DNA of 64,000 bases from Eubacteriales bacterium (GTDB lineage Bacteria > Bacillota > Clostridia > Lachnospirales > Lachnospiraceae), in the NCBI GenBank assembly GCA_030533405.1, contig JAUNJF010000005.1, positions 1-64,000 on the forward strand. Direction: 5' to 3'. Below the pieces are notes generated by a model, which was not told where the DNA came from, made no database searches, and worked only from the letters and a program-made list of their open reading frames with translations. Each line of letters begins with the position of its first letter. Positions within the stretch are counted from its first letter, which is position 1. This document shows, piece by piece, positions 1 to 7,306 of this stretch. The translations under genes and the position numbers were made by a program.

Positions 1-70
1 TATATGGACACAGGATGGATGTAGATTATATATAAATTACATCAAATTCAAATTTTGCGAGGTAATCAGT

Positions 71-166
71 ATGAGTGATAAAGATATTGTTATTAATGAT
101 ATAGATGCTGGAAAAAGTTTTAACTGGGGAAAAACATCAAAAGATTATGCTAAGTATAGTGTTTAA
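71..166 (+). pseudogene. Truncated class I SAM methyltransferase, N-terminal fragment
   Basis: This short reading frame encodes 31 residues ending in GKTSKDYAKYSV and then stops. The N-terminal pattern 'D.GK.F.WGKTSKDYAKY' matches my memory of the start of small Firmicutes class I SAM-dependent methyltransferases, in which YAKY is normally followed by RDIYP. None of the SAM-binding glycine motif or catalytic region remains, so it is a broken gene. It begins after a leader (positions 44-66) resembling the leaders of the small genes at 2400 and 5922. The frame diverges exactly at residue 30, suggesting replacement by recombination rather than gradual decay. Family identity rests on about 20 residues. 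Confidence 0.5.
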
Positions 167-199
167 TTAAAAATATGCAAATTGATTAGGAGAGATTAT

Positions 200-303
200 A
201 TGTTTATGTTGCTACCGGGTTATATGGTAGCGATTATGATTTTGAGAATACGGGCTACCGTAAATTCTGAGAATACGGGCTACCGTAAATTCCTATTTTC
301 GGT
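200..303. repeat. 25-bp tandem repeat with hairpins, ending in cassette-junction motif
   Basis: A 25-bp unit is repeated perfectly at 243-267 and 268-292. It contains the self-complementary stretch TACGGGCTACCGTA. The second copy runs directly into the recurring junction motif (ATTCCTATTTTCGG, 289-302). A related degenerate copy (ATACGGGCTATGTAG) sits in front of another junction motif near 1553. Upstream, GCTACC and GGTAGC around 211-231 add further inverted complementarity. Open frames through this stretch are probably accidental. Confidence 0.75.
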
Positions 304-325
304 GCAATTAGGAAAGGGAGACAGT

Positions 326-820
326 ATGTTAAAATTTGTTCATATATATAAGAATTACTTCTTTGGACTTTCACTAATAGGTATATTGGCTTTTGTTATT
401 CAGGAGATTCCGTATATTATTATGCCATTAGTAAAACCTGAATCAAATCCCATAATGAATATGCAAAATGAGACAAAAAGGATAGCAATTGTTCAAAACA
501 TATTTGGAATGTTATCTATGGTATTGTTAATGTTACTTGTTAGAGATGATATACCAATTTTTTCAATATCAACAGCAAAGGAAAGAATATTTTTTGCCTT
601 AACGATTTGTATGATATTGATTAATTTTATTGGATGGGCATTCTATTATACGGGACATCAATATGGGTGGTTGATTGTAATTAGCCAATTTGCAGTTGTT
701 CCGCTATATTATCTACTATTTGGATTATGGAAAGGCAATTATCCATTGGTTGGTACTGCCACTATTTTTTTTATAATTCATACTGTTAATGGGTATATGA
801 ATTTTATAGTGAAGAAATAA
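326..820 (+). CDS. Hypothetical integral membrane protein
   Basis: The 164-residue product has about four or five hydrophobic segments and a basic end (VKK), so it is probably an inner-membrane protein. I chose the ATG at 326 because AGGAAAGGGAG lies just upstream; the same frame is open from 182, but that part reads through the tandem repeat and gives an implausible sequence. I do not recognise a family. The gene is AT-rich and lies between two copies of the junction motif (289-302 and 824-844), like the other small genes here. There is no partner gene from which to infer a function. Confidence 0.7.
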   Translation: MLKFVHIYKNYFFGLSLIGILAFVIQEIPYIIMPLVKPESNPIMNMQNETKRIAIVQNIFGMLSMVLLMLLVRDDIPIFSISTAKERIFFALTICMILINFIGWAFYYTGHQYGWLIVISQFAVVPLYYLLFGLWKGNYPLVGTATIFFIIHTVNGYMNFIVKK

Positions 821-823
821 TGC

Positions 824-844
824 AAATTCTAATTATCGGAATTA
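824..844 (+). repeat. Cassette-junction motif copy
   Basis: The sequence ATTCTAATTATCGGAATTA, four bases after the preceding stop codon, matches the recurring junction motif of this region (copies also near 289, 1566, 2350, 2760, 4766, 5874 and 6309). It forms a small stem of ATTCT/GGAAT type. Confidence 0.6.
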
Positions 845-923
845 CATATATGGAGCACCGGTATGGCAAATGAAAAATTATATGGAATGCTATTCAATAA
901 TTGAGGGGAGGATATAACTTTTA

Positions 924-1523
924 ATGAATAAGATTAGCAGTGACAAATTTACCCAAGAAGAAAAAGATTATATTGAAGAGTTGAAAAAGGCGGAAATTCT
1001 AGAGTCTAAATCTAGAGATTTAAGCCCACAGGAGTATGAACTACAGATTAGACAAGTGACAAAACAAGGGGAAAAGCTATTTAAGTTCTTTTCATTTATA
1101 TGTTTTGCTGTACTTGTTTTCTTTATTTTTTGTTATATAGATGATAAGGAGGAATGTAGTTTTATGTATCCTTGGTTGTTTATCTTATGTATCGTTCTTG
1201 GCACATATATGTTCATAATAGGCCATATGTGGACACATAAGCATGATAATAAGATATATGAGTTTAAAAATGTCGCATTAAAATATAATATTGGAAGTAA
1301 TCCGAGAGGTCCAGCAATGAATTATTATTCGATTGCTGAAGTTATGCCGAATGGTACGATAAGGTATTTTAGCTGTCGAGAAGATATGAGAAAAGGTGAT
1401 GATATCTACGAAGGAAAGTTGCTTATGGCTGATATGATTCAAGAAAAAGGACAAACAGATACATTGTTTAGTATTGATAGGAAAAGTATTCGTGTTATAA
1501 AAAGAACTCGGCTTGTCGATTAG
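924..1523 (+). CDS. Hypothetical protein with two transmembrane segments
   Basis: This 199-residue protein has a charged N-terminal region of about 55 residues, two hydrophobic segments (about residues 56-72 and 82-102) and a polar C-terminal domain. It looks like a bitopic or hairpin membrane protein with both ends on one side. A strong GGGGAGG lies about 12 bases before the ATG, which is slightly far, so the start is not fully secure. I recognise no family. It is flanked by junction motifs on both sides (824 and 1566) and has no functional partner nearby. Confidence 0.7.
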   Translation: MNKISSDKFTQEEKDYIEELKKAEILESKSRDLSPQEYELQIRQVTKQGEKLFKFFSFICFAVLVFFIFCYIDDKEECSFMYPWLFILCIVLGTYMFIIGHMWTHKHDNKIYEFKNVALKYNIGSNPRGPAMNYYSIAEVMPNGTIRYFSCREDMRKGDDIYEGKLLMADMIQEKGQTDTLFSIDRKSIRVIKRTRLVD

Positions 1524-1552
1524 TTAAGTAAACAATATGATGATTTTGATAA

Positions 1553-1586
1553 TACGGGCTATGTAGATTCTAATTTTCAGAATTTT
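1553..1586 (+). repeat. Cassette-junction motif copy with upstream half-repeat
   Basis: GATTCTAATTTTCAGAATT is another copy of the junction motif, with inverted ATTCT/AGAAT arms. It is preceded by ATACGGGCTATGTAG, a diverged version of the 25-bp unit at 243-292. The downstream part GAATTTTGT matches the leader in front of the gene at 5922, as if the middle of the repeat had been deleted. Confidence 0.6.
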
Positions 1587-1627
1587 GTAATATATAGATA
1601 TATCTGTAAAACCGCATAAATACTGGA

Positions 1628-1731
1628 TGTTACGGGGAGTAACAGTGTTGTCACATTTAGTTTCTTGTGCGTTACTAGGTTGGTGTTATAAGTTTGACCT
1701 GTAAACGAAAACACCATATGAGGTGACAACA
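1628..1731 (+). other. Structured leader upstream of the XRE regulator
   Basis: Three nested or adjacent inverted repeats lie before the ribosome binding site of the gene at 1750. They are a hairpin TGTTAC/GTAACA (1628-1633 with 1639-1644), a closing stem TGTTGTCAC/GTGACAACA (1646-1654 with 1723-1731), and inside it TGGTGTT/AACACCA (1681-1687 with 1710-1716). The closing stem ends four bases before AAGGAGG (1735-1741). It could be a structured mRNA leader, a small RNA or overlapping operators for the adjacent repressor; the sequence alone does not decide. Confidence 0.5.
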
Positions 1732-1749
1732 ATTAAGGAGGTCGTTATT

Positions 1750-2322
1750 ATGACATTTGGAGAAAAATTAAAGGAAGCAAGAAAAGAGTCAGGGTTATCG
1801 CAAGAACAATTTGCAGAGAAGATGAATATATCAAGATCCGCTGTTGCAAAATGGGAAACAGATAAGGGTATGCCAGATGTTAATAATCTTAAGATTATGG
1901 CACAACTTTTAAATGTAAGTGTTGATTATCTTTTAGACGAGGATGAAAAGATTAGTTTTAATGAGATTAAGGAAGCAATTAATCTCGATGAATATGAAAA
2001 GTCTGGTAAATGCAGAGATAAAAGGGATGCGGTTTGTCTAGCAAAGAATACGGATGCAACAGCTATTTGTACATTGACTAGAAATAAGAAAATGAGCAAG
2101 ACTGAATGGTTAGTAGATTTTATTGTACAGCCAGGAGTTGTAAATGTTTTAGACCAGTTAAATGCAAATGCTAGTTTCTATTTAGTTTGCAAGAACGGAA
2201 AGCAATACTTGATTAAGGTGACTGACGAATTTATCATTACTAATGAATTGGCAGAATCTGTAGATGAAAAGAAATTTGTAATAGGAAATTATCAATATAA
2301 GAAACTATATCAGTTGATTTAG
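1750..2322 (+). CDS. XRE-family HTH transcriptional regulator
   Basis: The 190-residue product begins with a classic Cro/C1-type helix-turn-helix (about residues 4-60: GEKLKEARKESGLSQEQFAE, then SRSAVAKWETDKGMPD). The C-terminal 120 residues are not a family I know; they contain a few cysteines and may sense a ligand or partner. I chose the ATG at 1750 because AAGGAGG sits at 1735-1741. The gene is preceded by a strongly structured leader (1628-1731) that may include its own operator. No obvious co-transcribed target follows; the next gene is after another junction motif. Confidence 0.85.
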   Translation: MTFGEKLKEARKESGLSQEQFAEKMNISRSAVAKWETDKGMPDVNNLKIMAQLLNVSVDYLLDEDEKISFNEIKEAINLDEYEKSGKCRDKRDAVCLAKNTDATAICTLTRNKKMSKTEWLVDFIVQPGVVNVLDQLNANASFYLVCKNGKQYLIKVTDEFIITNELAESVDEKKFVIGNYQYKKLYQLI

Positions 2323-2349
2323 AAATTGAAACTTATTGATGAATCACTA

Positions 2350-2395
2350 GATTCCTATTTTCGGAATTAAACAAATTTGAATTTGTAGGGGTGAT
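2350..2395 (+). repeat. Cassette-junction motif plus leader, near-complete copy
   Basis: This is one of the two most complete copies. The core ATTCCTATTTTCGGAATTA (2351-2369) is followed by an A/T-rich leader (AACAAATTTGAATTTG) and an AGGGG ribosome binding site for the gene at 2400. The same order of core, leader, ribosome binding site and start codon occurs at 5874-5922 in front of an unrelated gene. Confidence 0.65.
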
Positions 2396-2399
2396 ATAA

Positions 2400-2729
2400 A
2401 TGCAAAAAAGAATGTTATTTGAAAGGTTTATGTATATTTTAGAAAATGATGATAACTATCAAGTTGATGAAACTTCCTTTTATTTCATTGACGACCCAGA
2501 GCAAAAAGAGCATATGATAGGTTGTATTCGAAAATACGACAGACCTTATTGGATAGGTTATTGTGATATACCAGATGGTTGTGAATTTTACACTGCACTG
2601 GAAATGTTGGAAGCGAAAGTTTTTAATGGCAAATCAATAAAAGAAAGATGGAATGAAATAGAATTAATAACCATTGGAGCAATAAACTATAATGAGTGGC
2701 TAGAAATGTATAATGAGAATGTAATATAG
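2400..2729 (+). CDS. Small hypothetical protein
   Basis: The product is 109 residues, soluble and acidic, with no signal peptide or membrane segment and several aromatic residues (for example YWIGYCDIPDGCEF). I do not recognise it; size and composition recall small immunity-type or uncharacterised accessory proteins, but nothing proves that. The ATG is set by TAGGGGTGAT just upstream. The leader is the conserved junction repeat, and a diverged junction motif (AAATCCCAGTTTG) follows the stop codon by about 30 bases, so the gene is bracketed like a cassette. Confidence 0.65.
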   Translation: MQKRMLFERFMYILENDDNYQVDETSFYFIDDPEQKEHMIGCIRKYDRPYWIGYCDIPDGCEFYTALEMLEAKVFNGKSIKERWNEIELITIGAINYNEWLEMYNENVI

Positions 2730-2759
2730 AGTTGAAACACAGAAAACATTCGAGAATAC

Positions 2760-2777
2760 AAATCCCAGTTTGTGATG
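2760..2777 (+). repeat. Cassette-junction motif, CCAGTTT variant
   Basis: AAATCCCAGTTTGTGATG lies 30 bases after a stop codon. The same variant (AAATCCCAGTTTGTCG) appears five bases after the stop of the dehydrogenase gene at 4766, and related forms occur at 6285 and 6309. Confidence 0.5.
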
Positions 2778-2859
2778 TAATTGTTTGGTACTTATTATAG
2801 GTTTGCAACAAAAAAGTGATTTCTCTATTTAGAAAAATCACATTAGATACTCTTGATGA

Positions 2860-3495
2860 CTATAGATTTTTAAGTATTATTTTTATGAAGTGGGTGAATG
2901 ATTCAATAAAATTAATGTCATCAATTTCAAGTTGTGCTAACTTCATAGCATCTAAATAAATATCATGGTAAAAGACACGATCGTATAAATAAACACCGTG
3001 ATAAAGAATGGTTAGATAAATGTTGAACCATTCTTTTTCATTAATATCAAGAGTTTTATTAATGACAGAGTATAAGTCAGCTACATAAATATTATTTTTT
3101 ACTTTAAAGTCAGCAAGTTTTTCAACGGAAACATTTGTTTCGATAATGGAATTCAAAATTTGGTGGTACTTAAGTAAATCAATATGCTTATAGAACGCCT
3201 GACTAAAAGTTTCAGCGATACTATCGATTGTTTGAGTATTGCTAGATAAAGTGTTACATACATCTTTTACAAAAGCTTCTTCTTTTTGTAGGTAAAGACT
3301 TAAGAAGATTTCTTCTTTAGAACTTACATATTTATATAAACCACCTCTAGCTAAATTCAACTCTTTAGAAATAACTGATAATGTAATATCATGGTAAGTT
3401 GAATGATGAAATAGATGATCTGCTACATCCATTATCTGTTGATAGCGGATGGTTTTATTTTCTTTACTTTTTGCACGTTGAAAATTGGTATCCAT
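2860..3495 (-). CDS. TetR/AcrR-family transcriptional repressor
   Basis: The 211-residue product has a TetR-type N-terminal DNA-binding domain (about residues 18-65: IMDVADHLFHHSTYHDITLS, then GGLYKYVSSKEEIF) followed by an all-helical ligand-binding domain that I cannot assign. The start is supported by TAGGAGGATT upstream on this strand. It is divergent from the iron-dependent alcohol dehydrogenase at 3616. Two 19-bp palindromes in the shared intergenic region overlap the dehydrogenase promoter and are the obvious operators. The likely role, by inference, is local repression of the dehydrogenase relieved by an aldehyde or other small molecule. Confidence 0.85.
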   Translation of the reverse strand: MDTNFQRAKSKENKTIRYQQIMDVADHLFHHSTYHDITLSVISKELNLARGGLYKYVSSKEEIFLSLYLQKEEAFVKDVCNTLSSNTQTIDSIAETFSQAFYKHIDLLKYHQILNSIIETNVSVEKLADFKVKNNIYVADLYSVINKTLDINEKEWFNIYLTILYHGVYLYDRVFYHDIYLDAMKLAQLEIDDINFIESFTHFIKIILKNL

Positions 3496-3540
3496 AAATT
3501 GAATCCTCCTACGTTATCATTATAAATGATAAAATAGGTA

Positions 3541-3569
3541 TTGACAAGAGACAATATGTCACTTATAAT
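3541..3569 (+). promoter_or_regulatory. Sigma-A-type promoter for the alcohol dehydrogenase
   Basis: TTGACA (3541-3546) and TATAAT (3564-3569) are separated by 17 bases. Both hexamers are consensus, so this should be a strong housekeeping promoter unless repressed. The spacer is almost entirely filled by a palindromic operator. Confidence 0.85.
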
Positions 3570-3600
3570 TTGAATGTAGATAAGAGACATGACGTCGCTT
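3546..3600. promoter_or_regulatory. Two 19-bp palindromic operators, likely TetR-regulator sites
   Basis: AAGAGACAATATGTCACTT (3546-3564) and AAGAGACATGACGTCGCTT (3582-3600) share the form AAGNGACR-N3-YGTCNCTT, a dyad of the size bound by TetR-type dimers. The first fills the promoter spacer and the second lies in the transcribed leader, 36 bases downstream. Their position between the regulator and the dehydrogenase supports repression of the latter. Binding itself is inferred. Confidence 0.7.
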
Positions 3601-3615
3601 AAAAAGGAGGGTTAT

Positions 3616-4761
3616 ATGGAATCATTTATTTATCAGATGCCTGTAAAGGTATATTTTGGACAGAATGGTGTTAGAGAACATTTAGCGAGTGAATTAAAAA
3701 AATATGGACCAAATATTATGCTGGCGTATGGAAAAGGAGCCATTAAAAGAATTGGCTTATATGATGAATTAGTAGAAATCTTAAAAGATTGCGGAAAGAA
3801 TATTATCGAATTATGTGATATTCCTGCTAATCCAACATATGAAAAGGTGCAAGAAGGTATCGAGCTTTATCGAGACAATCATGTTGATTTAATTATTGCA
3901 GCTGGTGGGGGATCTGTTGTTGACTGTGTTAAAGTCATTACTGCTGGAGTTTATGAAGAAAGTGATTTATGGCAGGCACAAATGGATGAAGGTAGGATTG
4001 CTGAAAAAATGGGTAATTTTGCTGTTGTCTTAACCTTATCTGGTGCCGGTGCAGAAATGGATAATTTAGGTGCCATTACAAAAGACGATGATAAGAAAAC
4101 TTTTGTGGGATCTTATGCTAAATTTGTTATTTTAGATCCAACATATATTAAAGATATCCCATTCACATCATTCATGCCAGGCGCATTTGACAGCTTAACA
4201 CATTGTATGGAAACATACTTTGGACATGGCTATAATGTATCAGATCGTATGAATGAAGGTATCATGAAAGATATTATTGCAAATATGTATGCAATGATTA
4301 ATGGAAATGATAGTTTAGAAATAAGATCAAATTTAATGTGGGATTCTTCACTCATTCAAACATTCTTGTTTAATGTTGGGAAACCGGGAGATTTCCAGGC
4401 ACATAGTATCGAAAATACTTTAGGTGCATATAGTCATGGTACACATGGAAAACAATTGGCAATTATCCAACCTGCATATTATCGTGCTGTGTATGAAAAC
4501 GAGATGGATAAGTTTGCAACTTTTGCAAGAAATGTATTTAATGTAAAAGAAGAAGACAATAAAAAAGCAGCTGATTTAGGATTAGAATGCTTAGAACAAC
4601 TAATCGATGAAGCTAAACTTCCTCGAACATTTAAGGAGGCAGGATATGAATTAACAGAAGAAGTAGCTAAAGCTGTTTCAATGAAATGTCCTATTTCTAT
4701 GAATGGGCCAAGAATGCTAACAAGAGAAGAAGTTTTTAACATGTTAATGAGATTGAGATAA
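3616..4761 (+). CDS. Iron-containing alcohol dehydrogenase (butanol-dehydrogenase-like)
   Basis: The 381-residue protein is a full-length member of the Fe-dependent alcohol dehydrogenase family that reduces aldehydes with NAD(P)H. The nucleotide-binding motif AAGGGSVVDCVK lies near residue 100, metal-ligand regions are visible as GAFDSLTHCMETYFGHG and GAYSHGTHGKQ, and the overall order matches YqhD/BdhA-type enzymes. The ATG at 3616 is chosen because AAAAAGGAGGG precedes it; an in-frame ATG at 3589 lies inside the second operator. Expression is probably controlled by the divergent TetR repressor. A CCAGTTT-type junction motif follows the stop by five bases. Confidence 0.92.
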   Translation: MESFIYQMPVKVYFGQNGVREHLASELKKYGPNIMLAYGKGAIKRIGLYDELVEILKDCGKNIIELCDIPANPTYEKVQEGIELYRDNHVDLIIAAGGGSVVDCVKVITAGVYEESDLWQAQMDEGRIAEKMGNFAVVLTLSGAGAEMDNLGAITKDDDKKTFVGSYAKFVILDPTYIKDIPFTSFMPGAFDSLTHCMETYFGHGYNVSDRMNEGIMKDIIANMYAMINGNDSLEIRSNLMWDSSLIQTFLFNVGKPGDFQAHSIENTLGAYSHGTHGKQLAIIQPAYYRAVYENEMDKFATFARNVFNVKEEDNKKAADLGLECLEQLIDEAKLPRTFKEAGYELTEEVAKAVSMKCPISMNGPRMLTREEVFNMLMRLR

Positions 4762-4765
4762 TGTC

Positions 4766-4824
4766 AAATCCCAGTTTGTCGAAACGATGTTAGACAATGA
4801 AATTGTAATTTTTCGCGCTAACAT
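4766..4824 (+). repeat. Junction motif plus nested hairpin
   Basis: AAATCCCAGTTTGTCG (4766-4781) is followed by an inverted repeat ATGTTAG/CTAACAT (4787-4793 with 4818-4824) that encloses a second small hairpin ACAAT-gaa-ATTGT (4794-4806). The outer pair lies in the order GTT...AAC, opposite to integron attC sites. No U-tract follows, so it is not a standard terminator. Confidence 0.5.
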
Positions 4825-4902
4825 AACGATTTTAATTAAAAAGGAGAAGTTAGTTGTTGTGTAAGATATAAAATTATCTTTAAAAATAACTTATGAGGAA
4901 AA

Positions 4903-5688
4903 ATGAAAAAACCTAAGATGAATAAGCCGTCTAAAAATGTAGTTCTTTTCATAATTATAGCGTTCCTTCTCCCGCTGATGATTGTTGCAACACAGAGCAG
5001 AGATTTAAATAATGCCATTGGTTTTGTCTTATACGGTATTCAAGCAGCTGCTCCTTCTATCGCAGCGATTGTTGTTTTTGCGGCAAACAAGGATTTGAGA
5101 GTATCTTTTTCTCGATTATTCCACAAAGATTATTTGACGAGAGCAATCTTTTTACCGGCGGTAATCGTTTGTGTTGTTATGATTGCAGCAAAACTGCTTT
5201 CATCCTTGATCATTGGAGAACACAACTCATTTTTTGGAGCCGTATCCTGTAAGCAATGGATTATCATCCTGTGGGCCTTTGTGGCAGAAGAACTTGGATG
5301 GAGAGGGTATCTGGAGCCTGAGCTCAATAAACTTGGTGTTAACAAACAGCTTATTCCAGGTATGGTTGGTTTGATATGGTGCTTATGGCATTATCATTAC
5401 TTCATGCAGAATAATATTGAGATACCCATAGCGTTATTTTTGATCGGATGTATTATTGAAAGTTATATCTACAGTTTTCTGATGAGATTTACAAAGAATA
5501 ATCTTATATCAGCCATGACCTTTCATTTTGCGTATAACTTAATGATCCACGTTGCGGCTATAAATCCTTCTGATAACAATGGGTGCTTAATCCCTTACGT
5601 AACAATGATGATAATAGAAGCTGTGGTATTATTTGTGTTGATATTATGGGATGTAAAAAGGAAAAACAGACAAAGCTTATGTGGATAA
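4903..5688 (+). CDS. CPBP-family intramembrane metalloprotease (CAAX-protease-like)
   Basis: The 261-residue protein has about seven or eight hydrophobic segments and the family's conserved motifs: EELGWRGYLEP near residue 128, WCLWHYHYF near 163 and FHFAYN near 207. These correspond to the glutamate and histidine metal site of the CPBP/Abi family. Bacterial members act in bacteriocin immunity, protein maturation or unknown processing, and nothing here identifies the substrate. GAGGAAAA precedes the ATG. It stands alone, downstream of a structured intergenic region and upstream of the tRNA-like/junction region. Confidence 0.88.
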   Translation: MKKPKMNKPSKNVVLFIIIAFLLPLMIVATQSRDLNNAIGFVLYGIQAAAPSIAAIVVFAANKDLRVSFSRLFHKDYLTRAIFLPAVIVCVVMIAAKLLSSLIIGEHNSFFGAVSCKQWIIILWAFVAEELGWRGYLEPELNKLGVNKQLIPGMVGLIWCLWHYHYFMQNNIEIPIALFLIGCIIESYIYSFLMRFTKNNLISAMTFHFAYNLMIHVAAINPSDNNGCLIPYVTMMIIEAVVLFVLILWDVKRKNRQSLCG

Positions 5689-5752
5689 ATGAATGAAAAG
5701 GATGATTATCGTACATTATATCGCTATATAATAGAACAAGAATCAGAAAACA

Positions 5753-5797
5753 ATTTCATAGCCAAATCTGAAAAACAGTTAGATTTGGCTATGAAAT
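5753..5797 (+). repeat. Perfect 17-bp inverted repeat
   Basis: ATTTCATAGCCAAATCT (5753-5769) and its exact complement AGATTTGGCTATGAAAT (5781-5797) flank an 11-base loop. No T-run follows, so it is weak as a terminator. It may be a transcript-end stem or a structural site next to the tRNA-like sequence. Confidence 0.65.
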
Positions 5798-5816
5798 ATA
5801 GCAAATAAAAATACAC

Positions 5817-5879
5817 ACGGACGTAGCTCAAGGGTAGAGCAGTGGCATTACTAAGGTGGCAAGATGCGGGTTCGATTCC
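5817..5879 (+). other. Truncated tRNA-like sequence (5' half plus T-loop)
   Basis: The stretch shows TA followed by a good D-arm (GCTC AAGGGTA GAGC, 5826-5840) and a T-arm beginning GCGGGTTCGATT. The anticodon stem does not pair convincingly, and the 3' half of the T-stem and the 3' acceptor strand are absent: after GATTCC the sequence becomes the junction repeat (5874-5898). It is therefore probably a decayed or split tRNA gene rather than a functional one. The break falls at the T-loop, a common integrase attachment position. Confidence 0.45.
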
Positions 5880-5915
5880 AGTTTTCGAAATTAAACAATT
5901 TAGAATTTTGTGAGG
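5874..5915 (+). repeat. Cassette-junction motif plus leader, near-complete copy
   Basis: GATTCCAGTTTTCGAAATTA (5874-5893) continues as an A/T-rich leader (AACAATTTAGAATTTTG) and TGAGG, the ribosome binding site of the gene at 5922. It is the copy that overlaps the T-loop of the tRNA-like sequence. The order is the same as at 2350-2395. Confidence 0.65.
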
Positions 5916-5921
5916 AATCGT

Positions 5922-6281
5922 ATGATCAGTCAGAGAGTAAAAAACTATATAGCTGAGCAATCCTTCTGTTCGGAATACCTTTTTAAAGACTGGGAAGGCT
6001 TTTTGAAACTCCTTTATGAAGAGGGTGGACGTATTAGTATGATTGTATGGTGGGATTATTGTACATTAGAAGAACATTATTTTTCTGTAGGAATGGGCGG
6101 CTACCATGATCCGACAAATTCGGAGTATATATATGCAGAGACTCAGTTTTTTGATGCGGAGCTGGAAACAAAAACGTATAAAGAGATTTTGGAATATATC
6201 ACGAATGTAAGAGCTTCTGGTTTTCGATACGACGACAAACATATCAGTCATGAACTTGTTCCGTCTTTTTATTTTGAATGA
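5922..6281 (+). CDS. Small hypothetical protein
   Basis: The 119-residue product is soluble and acidic, with no membrane segment or signal peptide. I do not recognise a family. The ATG at 5922 is supported by TGAGG six bases upstream; a GTG twelve bases earlier is less likely. The leader is the conserved junction repeat, and two diverged CCAGTTT motifs (6285-6296 and 6309-6321) follow the stop, so it is bracketed like the other small genes. The cysteine and tryptophan content (FCSEYLFKDWEGF near the N-terminus) is unremarkable. Confidence 0.65.
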   Translation: MISQRVKNYIAEQSFCSEYLFKDWEGFLKLLYEEGGRISMIVWWDYCTLEEHYFSVGMGGYHDPTNSEYIYAETQFFDAELETKTYKEILEYITNVRASGFRYDDKHISHELVPSFYFE

Positions 6282-6379
6282 CACCCCCCAGTTTATAGGG
6301 ATGAAAAAATTCCAGTTTACGTAACTTTGTTACGAACTTTCCTTTGTTTTCAAGCCTTTTCGGGCTTTATGATTTAAAA

Positions 6380-6445
6380 TATGTATCATTTTCCCTTGTT
6401 TTTGCCCTTGTGAATATTCCATGAGGGAAATAAGGGAAAATGCAT
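6380..6445. repeat. Cluster of AAGGGAAA-type motifs next to the integrase 3' end
   Basis: Within 60 bases there are four related motifs in both orientations: TTTTCCCTTG, TTTGCCCTTG, GAGGGAAA and AAGGGAAAA. Integrases of Tn916-like elements bind short direct repeats near the element ends, and these sit immediately after the integrase stop codon. A second cluster (ACAAGGGAAAA and TAAGGGAAA) occurs near 9657-9680. Their role as integrase arm sites or element ends is inferred. Confidence 0.4.
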
Positions 6446-6448
6446 GTG

Positions 6449-7306
6449 CTAGTTGCCATTTGCTACTTTATCAAGGAGCTTAGCGGAACTTCGCTTTGCA
6501 TCTCTGGTAGCATGGGCGTACACATTCATTGTTGTACTCACGTCAGAGTGTCCAAGTAATTCCTGAACATCCTTCGGTGGCGCTCCATTTGCTAAGAGGT
6601 TAGATGTGTAAGTGTGTCGTAATGCATGGAAATGAAAATCATCCAATCCCTCCAGTTTGTTCTTAGCTCGTCTACATGCAGACTGTATCGTTGAAGGTTG
6701 CTCTAGCGCACCGTTTTGTCTGATACAGACGAGAGAGATTTGATTGTAATCCTCTGGTGGAATCTCATTTCTATCAAGTAAGTGCCAGTCGTAGTGGATA
6801 CGTTTTTGATCTGTTACCTCTTGATAGTAATTTAGCTTATAGAGTTCTCCATACATTAACAGCTGTTTATGCTGTTCTTTTTTTGCCTTTTTTAGAATGT
6901 CGGCAAGGGTATCACAGAAATCTACAATTCGTATTTTGTTTCTCTTTGTAGTATCAAACTCAAGCTGTTGTCTGGAAGTGTTATATTTTACACTTCTACG
7001 AATGGTCATATACTGTTCTTCCAGATTAATATCGTTCCAACTGAGTGCACATACTTCTCCAAGACGAAGTCCTGTATAGTATGCAATCTGTATTGGAAGT
7101 AAAGCATCTGGATTATGCTCTTTGATATATGCCGTAAGTGTTTCAAACTGCTCATGAGTAATGACACAGTTTTCTCCTTGTTCTGCTTCGGTTTCTTCCT
7201 GTAGATGATTGTTAAAAAATGTTAAAAAAATGCCGTAATTTTTTTGAAACCATTTATAAAATTCAGACCACTTCTTAAGTGAAGGAGGTAAAGAGAACTT
7301 GACTGG
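6449..7306 (-). pseudogene. Tyrosine recombinase (integrase), 5'-truncated
   Basis: The open frame gives about 285 residues but has no convincing start codon upstream of the internal ATG at 7009. The catalytic domain is intact by eye: TGLRLGEVCAL (first Arg), HALRHTY (His-x-x-Arg), LGHSDV (His) and MNVYAHA (Tyr nucleophile). Tn916-type integrases are about 380-400 residues and carry arm-binding and core-binding domains at the N-terminus; here most of that region is missing, replaced by sequence overlapping the ribosome binding site of the divergent sigma gene at 7299. It is probably the remnant of an integrative element. Residual activity cannot be excluded but is unlikely. Confidence 0.85.

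Follow-up and report, generated by a model that had tools for sequence, protein, structure and literature searches.

The first 6,330 positions of the window, a 64,000-nucleotide stretch (1-64000) that forms the first 64 kb of the 137-kb contig C18 of a Lachnospiraceae genome, are probably a stretch of a mobile gene-cassette array, with crossover in or next to a short junction core and with units that are gained, lost and reordered. The recurring junction is real, and cassette exchange at or near the core is well supported by the sequence comparisons described below. The genome of the window is a 3.15-Mb draft in 94 contigs, 95.8% complete. It contains seven arrays, on C18 and on six other contigs (C14, C20, C56, C71, C84 and C88); those of C18, C20, C56 and C71 extend to a contig end. 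Because the array in the window starts right at the contig end, it may extend further upstream.

A cassette would consist of the core AAATTCYWRTTT, a short leader with a ribosome-binding site, one small gene (occasionally two), the stop codon of that gene and a short tail leading up to the next core. Such cassettes would be gained, lost and reordered as units by crossover within or beside the core. Exchange would occur within and between Lachnospiraceae genera, with several arrays at separate places of one genome. The cut in the core would be made by a site-specific recombinase whose gene lies elsewhere; it would most likely be of the tyrosine type and may be a housekeeping Xer enzyme.

The junction core and the layout of the array

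The consensus AAATTCYWRTTT fits nine sites of window 1-6330, with variation, as listed below. The eight junction sites named in the original prediction are all present and an additional ninth lies at 43. By weight matrix the nine sites score 15.6-21.2 bits; eight of them were seeds of the matrix. The motif had been described as a 19-mer with close variants. Variants of it are found at all sites, and the exact 19-mer only at 2351. When up to three mismatches were allowed, there were four matches in the window against 0.10 expected, three in the array (826, 2351 and 5875) and one outside it (55619).

Positions in the window, strand and feature:
43-61, plus: junction core 1, CAAATTCAAATTTTGCGAG, 5′ end of the cassette with the truncated gene; matrix 19.1
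71-166, plus: 31-aa open reading frame (ORF), judged by eye to be the truncated beginning of a methyltransferase-like gene from its likeness to the ORF at L230:12944; no family search
240-291, plus: pre-core element m1a, TTTTGAGAATACGGGCTACCGTAAATT, tandem 25-bp unit
286-304, plus: junction core 2 (matrix); G242 homology begins at 287
286-822, plus: cassette with the gene of a 164-aa protein (326-820); 287-834 is 95% identical in contig C47 of G242
823-841, plus: junction core 3 (matrix); G242 homology stops at 834
823-1563, plus: cassette with the gene of a 199-aa protein (924-1523)
1544-1563, plus: pre-core element m1a
1564-1582, plus: junction core 4 (matrix); G063 homology begins at 1563
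1564-2347, plus: cassette with an HTH_3 regulator gene (1750-2322); 1563-2336 is 98% identical in contig C37 of G063
2348-2366, plus: junction core 5 (matrix), then the leader AAACAAATTTGAATTTG
2348-2758, plus: cassette with the gene of a 109-aa protein (2400-2729)
2759-2777, plus: junction core 6 (matrix)
2759-4764, no single strand: two-gene unit of a TetR regulator (2860-3495, minus) and an iron alcohol dehydrogenase (3616-4761, plus)
4765-4783, plus: junction core 7 (matrix); C71 aligns with 68% identity over 94 bp starting at 4760
4765-5871, plus: cassette with an Rce1-like membrane protease gene (4903-5688)
5824-5882, plus: partial tRNA-like sequence with no acceptor stem, continuing into core 8; 16.1 bits as tRNA in Rfam, short of the gathering score of 29, E = 1
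5872-5890, plus: junction core 8 (matrix), then the leader AAACAATTTAGAATTTTG
5872-6305, plus: cassette with the gene of a 119-aa protein (5922-6281)
6306-6324, plus: junction core 9 (matrix), final core of the array
6449-7306, minus: remnant of a tyrosine integrase gene; its single open frame has 285 codons, with the first start codon located at 7009

The truncated gene and the integrase remnant had both been predicted and are present. The same core links small, mostly co-oriented genes at six further places of the genome. A total of 37 cores of at least 11 bits were found in the seven arrays, and 36 of them were listed; C20:8072, inside a gene, was left out, and C14:7558, likewise inside a gene, was retained. 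After the first base, the consensus of the 36 listed cores was A(35) A(30) A(35) T(36) T(28)/C(8) C(34) C/T(31) A/T(35) A/G(36) T(33) T(34) T(34).

At 14 bits the matrix found 32 sites between the genes of the arrays (9.6 kb) and one in 26.5 kb of intergenic control DNA from this genome (3.3 versus 0.04 per kb), a contrast that is partly circular because the arrays were selected by the motif. The motif is rare between non-array genes, which speaks for the original prediction. Orientation was the same as that of the nearest gene at 27 of the 32 sites. A matrix built from the eight window sites only, used at 13 bits, found 10 sites in the intergenic DNA that the other arrays contain (8.5 kb) and one in the 26.5-kb control (1.2 versus 0.04 per kb), with residual circularity in this figure, as the other array contigs were reached via the core or the pre-core pattern. 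At a loose threshold (>9 bits) the matrix alone was weak, giving 140 matches in all fetched loci of the genome against 81-91 in three shuffles.

Cassettes shared with other genomes

Copies of the cassettes flank different genes in different genomes, as expected from the prediction that the junctions bound gene cassettes. The copy of window 287-834 in G242:C47 (95% identity) is flanked by a 372-aa gene and a 176-aa gene. The same G242 contig carries the chloramphenicol acetyltransferase (CAT) cassette C20:66-771 at 99% identity, although the two lie on different contigs in the genome of the window. On G242:C39, C20:768-2717 is followed directly by C20:8502-9478, both at 96%; the two are 5.8 kb apart in the genome of the window. 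G242 is the sole genome with several shared cassettes, and their order is not conserved there; a fixed order had been named as the outcome that would speak against cassettes.

Window 1563-2336 corresponds to G063:C37:6948-7720 at 98% identity; the left neighbour of the G063 copy is another core, and the pre-core element of its right junction differs. C20:758-891 was found in G061:C57 at 95% up to the contig end, with a different gene upstream. The DUF4279 cassette C84:8541-8966 was found on the 219-kb contig C3 of G139 (89%), where homology begins in the core, and C84:8707-9665 on the 443-kb contig C11 of G265 (95%). The single-contig genome G393 also shares cassettes, and identities in G139, G265 and G393 range from 85 to 95%. 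The length of the G139 and G265 contigs speaks for transfer between genera.

The exact pattern TTTTGANAATACGGGCTANNGTA occurred in four records of the genome collection, three horse-faeces metagenome-assembled genomes (MAGs) and Candidatus Colinaster equi, near different genes. Among 397 sampled genomes of the family, the window's own included, the C20 array was matched in 48 and the C84 array in 14 (E ≤ 1e-20); most of these matches are gene homologues of 64-80% identity. Searches for plasmid carriage gave no match for window 1-6400 and one distant CAT match for C20:1-8000, and the phage search gave two short distant matches only. The pre-core pattern hit nine stretches of viral contigs, unrelated by eye, and two further junction patterns hit none. 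On an IMG/VR contig (L315 4001-4498), a 65% relative of the 164-aa cassette gene stands alone between phage-type small genes and a tape-measure-like long ORF, as judged by eye; the cassette gene may therefore also travel as a phage passenger gene.

Ends of homology at the core

Eight stretches, chosen for known close matches, were compared. Thirteen alignments with at least 85% identity and E ≤ 1e-20 were kept and weaker ones were dropped uncounted. One of the 26 ends was excluded as it lay at a contig end. Ten of the remaining 25 were inside the core (-3 to +17), compared with 0.44 for random positions in the same arrays (maximum 5 in 20,000 draws), and 16 were within 30 nt of a core. Since genes are natural units, the test was redone on intergenic ends alone, and nine of 17 lay in the core against 1.67 expected (maximum 8 in 20,000 draws). 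In the letter alignments, upstream cassettes were common up to AAATTC.NATTT and downstream cassettes were common from AAATTC. In G139 the 5′ end of one cassette occurs in two copies that are identical from AAATTC on, with a leader unseen in the arrays of the window. Taken together, the shared cassettes, their new neighbours and order, and the ends at the core show that these units are exchangeable gene cassettes, and this comparison is the decisive evidence.

Leaders, pre-core repeats and termini

A long common leader had been described in front of several gene starts. The leader AAACAAATTTGAATTTG followed by AGG was found after two of the nine window cores (2348 and 5872), and related leaders at C56, C88, G062 and G242. 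A longer pre-core repeat, TTTTGAnAATACGGGCTACCGT, is present in many junctions of the genome of the window (13 model matches), and longer repeats of the m1a (25-45 bp) and CCCAGYTTGTCGAGCTGG types are also present besides the core. Leaders and pre-core elements look genome-typical. The small inverted arms claimed for each site did not withstand a permutation test: the best core complement in the 30 nt upstream was no better than with swapped upstream sequences (n = 37, P = 0.19). Folding of the junctions was ordinary, with a mean z of -0.65 over 42 junctions and six of the 42 below -2.

Array C84 starts past a tRNA cluster. No tRNA was found in the window or at the other scanned array loci of the genome (C14, C20, C56, C71 and C88). 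tRNA-anchored islands were rejected, the C84 cluster and the tRNA-like fragment before core 8 being the only cases. Two array 3′ ends, L012 5136-5172 in the genome of the window and L060 3042-3080 in Candidatus Colinaster equi, have a common element that contains TCGATAGACAG and flanking complementary arms; this element is possibly an array terminus. A GA-cis RNA (Rfam RF02987, 76.8 bits) was found at L052 15802-15893 on contig C20.

The core in other genomes

Intergenic DNA of G242 contained six cores in 2.1 kb, whereas the loci of relatives that served as background contained two in 25.0 kb. The loci of G060-G063 had 11 cores in 15.4 kb, and those of G139, G265 and G393 had five in 9.9 kb. 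A family-wide junction model run on 397 genomes gave 13 matches in the genome of the window and two in G242 (best E 1.8e-6). In twelve others a single weak match appeared (E between 5e-4 and 9e-3); with the cut-off at 0.01, chance alone would give about four.

Cargo

Pfam families of the cargo include chloramphenicol acetyltransferase (C20), an aminoglycoside acetyltransferase-like protein, GNATs, NUDIX, transglutaminase, alpha/beta hydrolases, immunity-type proteins of the SUKH and Imm30 families, deaminase, DUF4279 and DUF6678, and many cargo proteins have no Pfam family. One 616-aa cassette protein has a GGDEF domain. Two of the 50 proteins scanned reached the SUKH cut-off (SUKH_5, 84.8 bits, C71; SMI1_KNR4, 26.3 bits, C84), and weaker SUKH, Imm30 and DMP19 matches were also seen. 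One clear and one weak SUKH-type gene are adjacent on C71, and elsewhere such genes occur singly. The majority of the cargo was unrecognised as immunity-type. Array genes mostly have the same direction; the exceptions include the TetR/alcohol dehydrogenase pair of the window. With immunity-type, detoxifying, acetyltransferase-like, regulatory and uncharacterised cargo, the arrays would act as a shared accessory-gene pool.

Tyrosine recombinases

Tyrosine recombinase matches numbered eight in the genome of the window, 1, 6, 6 and 3 in G060-G063, 13 in G242, four in G265, seven in G139 and 12 in G393. The comparison of these nine genomes, several of them incomplete, left out three G242 and three G393 matches without locus. 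Among the proteins compared, the closest to the remnant (6449-7306) is one of 432 aa from G393 (62%), than which the remnant is shorter at the N-terminal end. The remnant is probably beside the array and not part of it. Co-occurrence of the junctions with one integrase family, which had been suggested as a check, was not found: the remnant stands at one of the seven arrays, and the most widespread groups are Xer-type. An Xer-like group of 346-368 aa occurs in seven of the nine genomes, being absent from the window's own and from G063; it adjoins a ttcA-like gene in G061 and G062. A XerD group occurs in six (not in G060, G063 and G393). A phage-type group occurs in the genome of the window, G063 and G242, and groups other than the Xer-like and XerD ones are in at most three genomes.

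With no group common to all and the remnant at one array only, a recombinase acting in trans is inferred rather than observed; an Xer enzyme is a candidate for it and not a finding. A search of the terminus region in the single-contig genome G393 gave no convincing dif site. At L310 (G393 1306000-1311000) the GC skew changes sign at an Xer-like gene, so the terminus and dif are probably there. Contig C5 (L143 3080-11392) encodes a stand-alone 307-aa Xer-like recombinase beside a 1158-aa ORF, with recombinase relatives in G139 and G393 (62-63%). Three tyrosine recombinase genes stand in succession on G061:C5 (L094, L097 and L104), possibly a recombinase trio.

Alternative explanations

Several observations weigh against a cassette array with crossover at the core. 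Fifteen of the 25 ends were outside the core window, and nine were more than 30 nt from a core (both of C88, C84:8991, 9613, 8707 and 8966, and three of the four of G393). The 3′ homology of the HTH cassette of the window ended about 12 nt ahead of the core, where the pre-core element differs (G000 versus G063), and homology of the G242 hydrolase cassette started near the ATG, beyond the core. At C14:46491-46700 (L055 9491-9700) three separated C84 stretches are joined as if the intervening genes had been deleted, which looks like deletion at a short chance repeat. The hydrolase cassette start and this join indicate that illegitimate recombination also acts. Same-genus genomes had zero cores in 8.6 kb of intergenic DNA at seven loci, and the pre-core pattern matched same-genus relatives no more than its reversed control did. 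With up to two mismatches the core pattern was matched in seven of 26 same-genus genomes including the window's own, the other contexts not being junction-like by eye. Found in other genera and not in same-genus loci, the core crosses genera and is not a genus trait. No recombinase group was present in all nine compared genomes (grouping at 38% identity), and no recombinase was tied to the arrays in searches for the tyrosine type, serine, HUH and DDE enzymes not having been searched genome-wide. The genomes are drafts, and the G242 contigs C39 and C47 measure only 7.9 and 5.7 kb, so that misbinning is possible.

Some of these points fit RecA-dependent and illegitimate recombination at repeated junctions, with no dedicated recombinase and the core as a chance meeting place of similar DNA. 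The longer repeats, the deletion-like C14 join and the G242 junction at the ATG favour it, and the esaG strings of Staphylococcus aureus are described in the available text of PMC9484751 as homologously recombining. The swapped junctions, however, have about 12 imperfect bp in common, and the sequence outside is unrelated at several ends. Such a length is short for RecA. We regard this explanation as the strongest competitor of a cassette array with its own enzyme, but a doubtful one.

The core might instead be a regulatory or mRNA element (promoter, leader or stability element) of small accessory genes, element and gene forming the selected unit and moving by ordinary transfer. It is mostly gene-oriented and lies 33-37 nt ahead of the next start codon in 11 of the 36 listed cores. 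The distance to the start nevertheless ranges from 28 to at least 186 nt, 12 of the 36 cores overlap the upstream stop codon or are at most 5 nt from it, and sigma-70-like sites are not in excess (35 in window 1-6400 against 38.1 in shuffles). Since upstream cassettes too are shared up to the core (C20:771, C20:2717 and C18:834), a leader alone is no explanation, and we consider this account unlikely.

The arrays also resemble the recombinase-associated acquired interbacterial defence (rAID) type of PMC12247911 in their co-oriented short genes, some of them SUKH-type, and in a conserved intergenic motif. The tyrosine recombinase could have been lost or lie in a gap, given that four of the seven arrays reach a contig end. 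The rAID arrays in the accessible part of that source belong to Bacteroidales and have the recombinase upstream, whereas the only array-adjacent tyrosine recombinase here is the downstream remnant at one of seven arrays, four of which are cut by contig ends, and much of the cargo is not immunity-type. A rAID-type array is thus improbable.

Still less probable is a binning or assembly artefact in which the matching G242 and G063 contigs come from strains of the window's own species. The short G242 contigs, which are largely arrays, would agree with it, but the G139 and G265 contigs and the single-contig G393 share cassettes at 85-95%, and even then the order would differ between strains. A degraded integron, that is, a cluster of attC sites lacking an integron integrase (CALIN), is scarcely credible despite the small unrelated genes, mainly in one direction, with a common junction element: as the original prediction had noted, the junctions are unlike attC sites, with RYYYAAC...GTTRRRY box pairs at 35-160 nt in none of 42 (0.16 expected), and none of seven tested recombinases (five of the eight from the genome of the window, plus one from G060 and one from G063) passed the integron-integrase cut-offs TIGR02249 (265) and NF011946 (435), the best TIGR02249 score being 138, for a XerD.

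Comparison with known systems

If a cassette system other than integrons exists in these bacteria, it would account for the way in which their rapidly changing sets of genes for immunity, detoxification and resistance-like functions arise. It would also provide a short site to search for and a means of testing for the missing recombinase, and tie polyimmunity loci and rAID arrays to a defined mechanism of exchange. More tentatively, Lachnospiraceae could have their own integron-independent cassette system, in which a recombinase in trans, perhaps a housekeeping Xer, acts on the double-strand core AAATTCYWRTTT and any array of any species with such arrays can gain, lose and reorder one-gene cassettes drawn from a cross-genus pool in the herbivore gut. 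A literature search, for which subscription journals were mostly outside coverage, returned no such system described in Lachnospiraceae. Integrons are extremely rare in Firmicutes according to the available text of PMC9024848: although the phylum accounted for 22% of the genomes, it had a single complete integron besides a few CALINs.

The nearest known kinds are polyimmunity loci and rAID arrays, followed by integrons. Polyimmunity loci (Zhang et al. 2012, PMC3482391) are presented in the accessible text as tandem small immunity genes that vary between strains, several of them beside XerC/D-type recombinase genes, and recombination is suggested there. Tandem small genes and strain-to-strain differences are common to both. 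As far as that text goes, the arrays here differ in having a defined core with a crossover excess, seven arrays per genome where polyimmunity loci are usually single, cargo far beyond immunity, and no intact recombinase alongside. rAID, as defined in the excerpt of PMC12247911 for Bacteroidales, combines short genes in one orientation with conserved motifs between them and a tyrosine recombinase. The arrays here likewise have short, mostly co-oriented genes between which a motif is conserved, the motif letters not having been compared, and a few genes of the SUKH immunity type, but they belong to another phylum and have other cargo and no array-linked tyrosine recombinase.

Like integrons and CALINs, as portrayed in the parts available of PMC9024848 and PMC8618304, the arrays have mobile cassettes exchanged as one-gene units, shuffled order and similar kinds of cargo. 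Unlike them, they have no attC boxes, no unusual folding and no tested integrase over the cut-offs. In pdif modules, short sites around small gene modules are moved in trans by housekeeping XerC/XerD. Short sites around small gene modules are found here as well, and the core by eye partly recalls one arm of what we take to be the Firmicutes dif consensus, but the second dif arm is missing by eye from most cores. We read the array as a new variant of the mobile gene-cassette array, with a recombinase presumably acting in trans.

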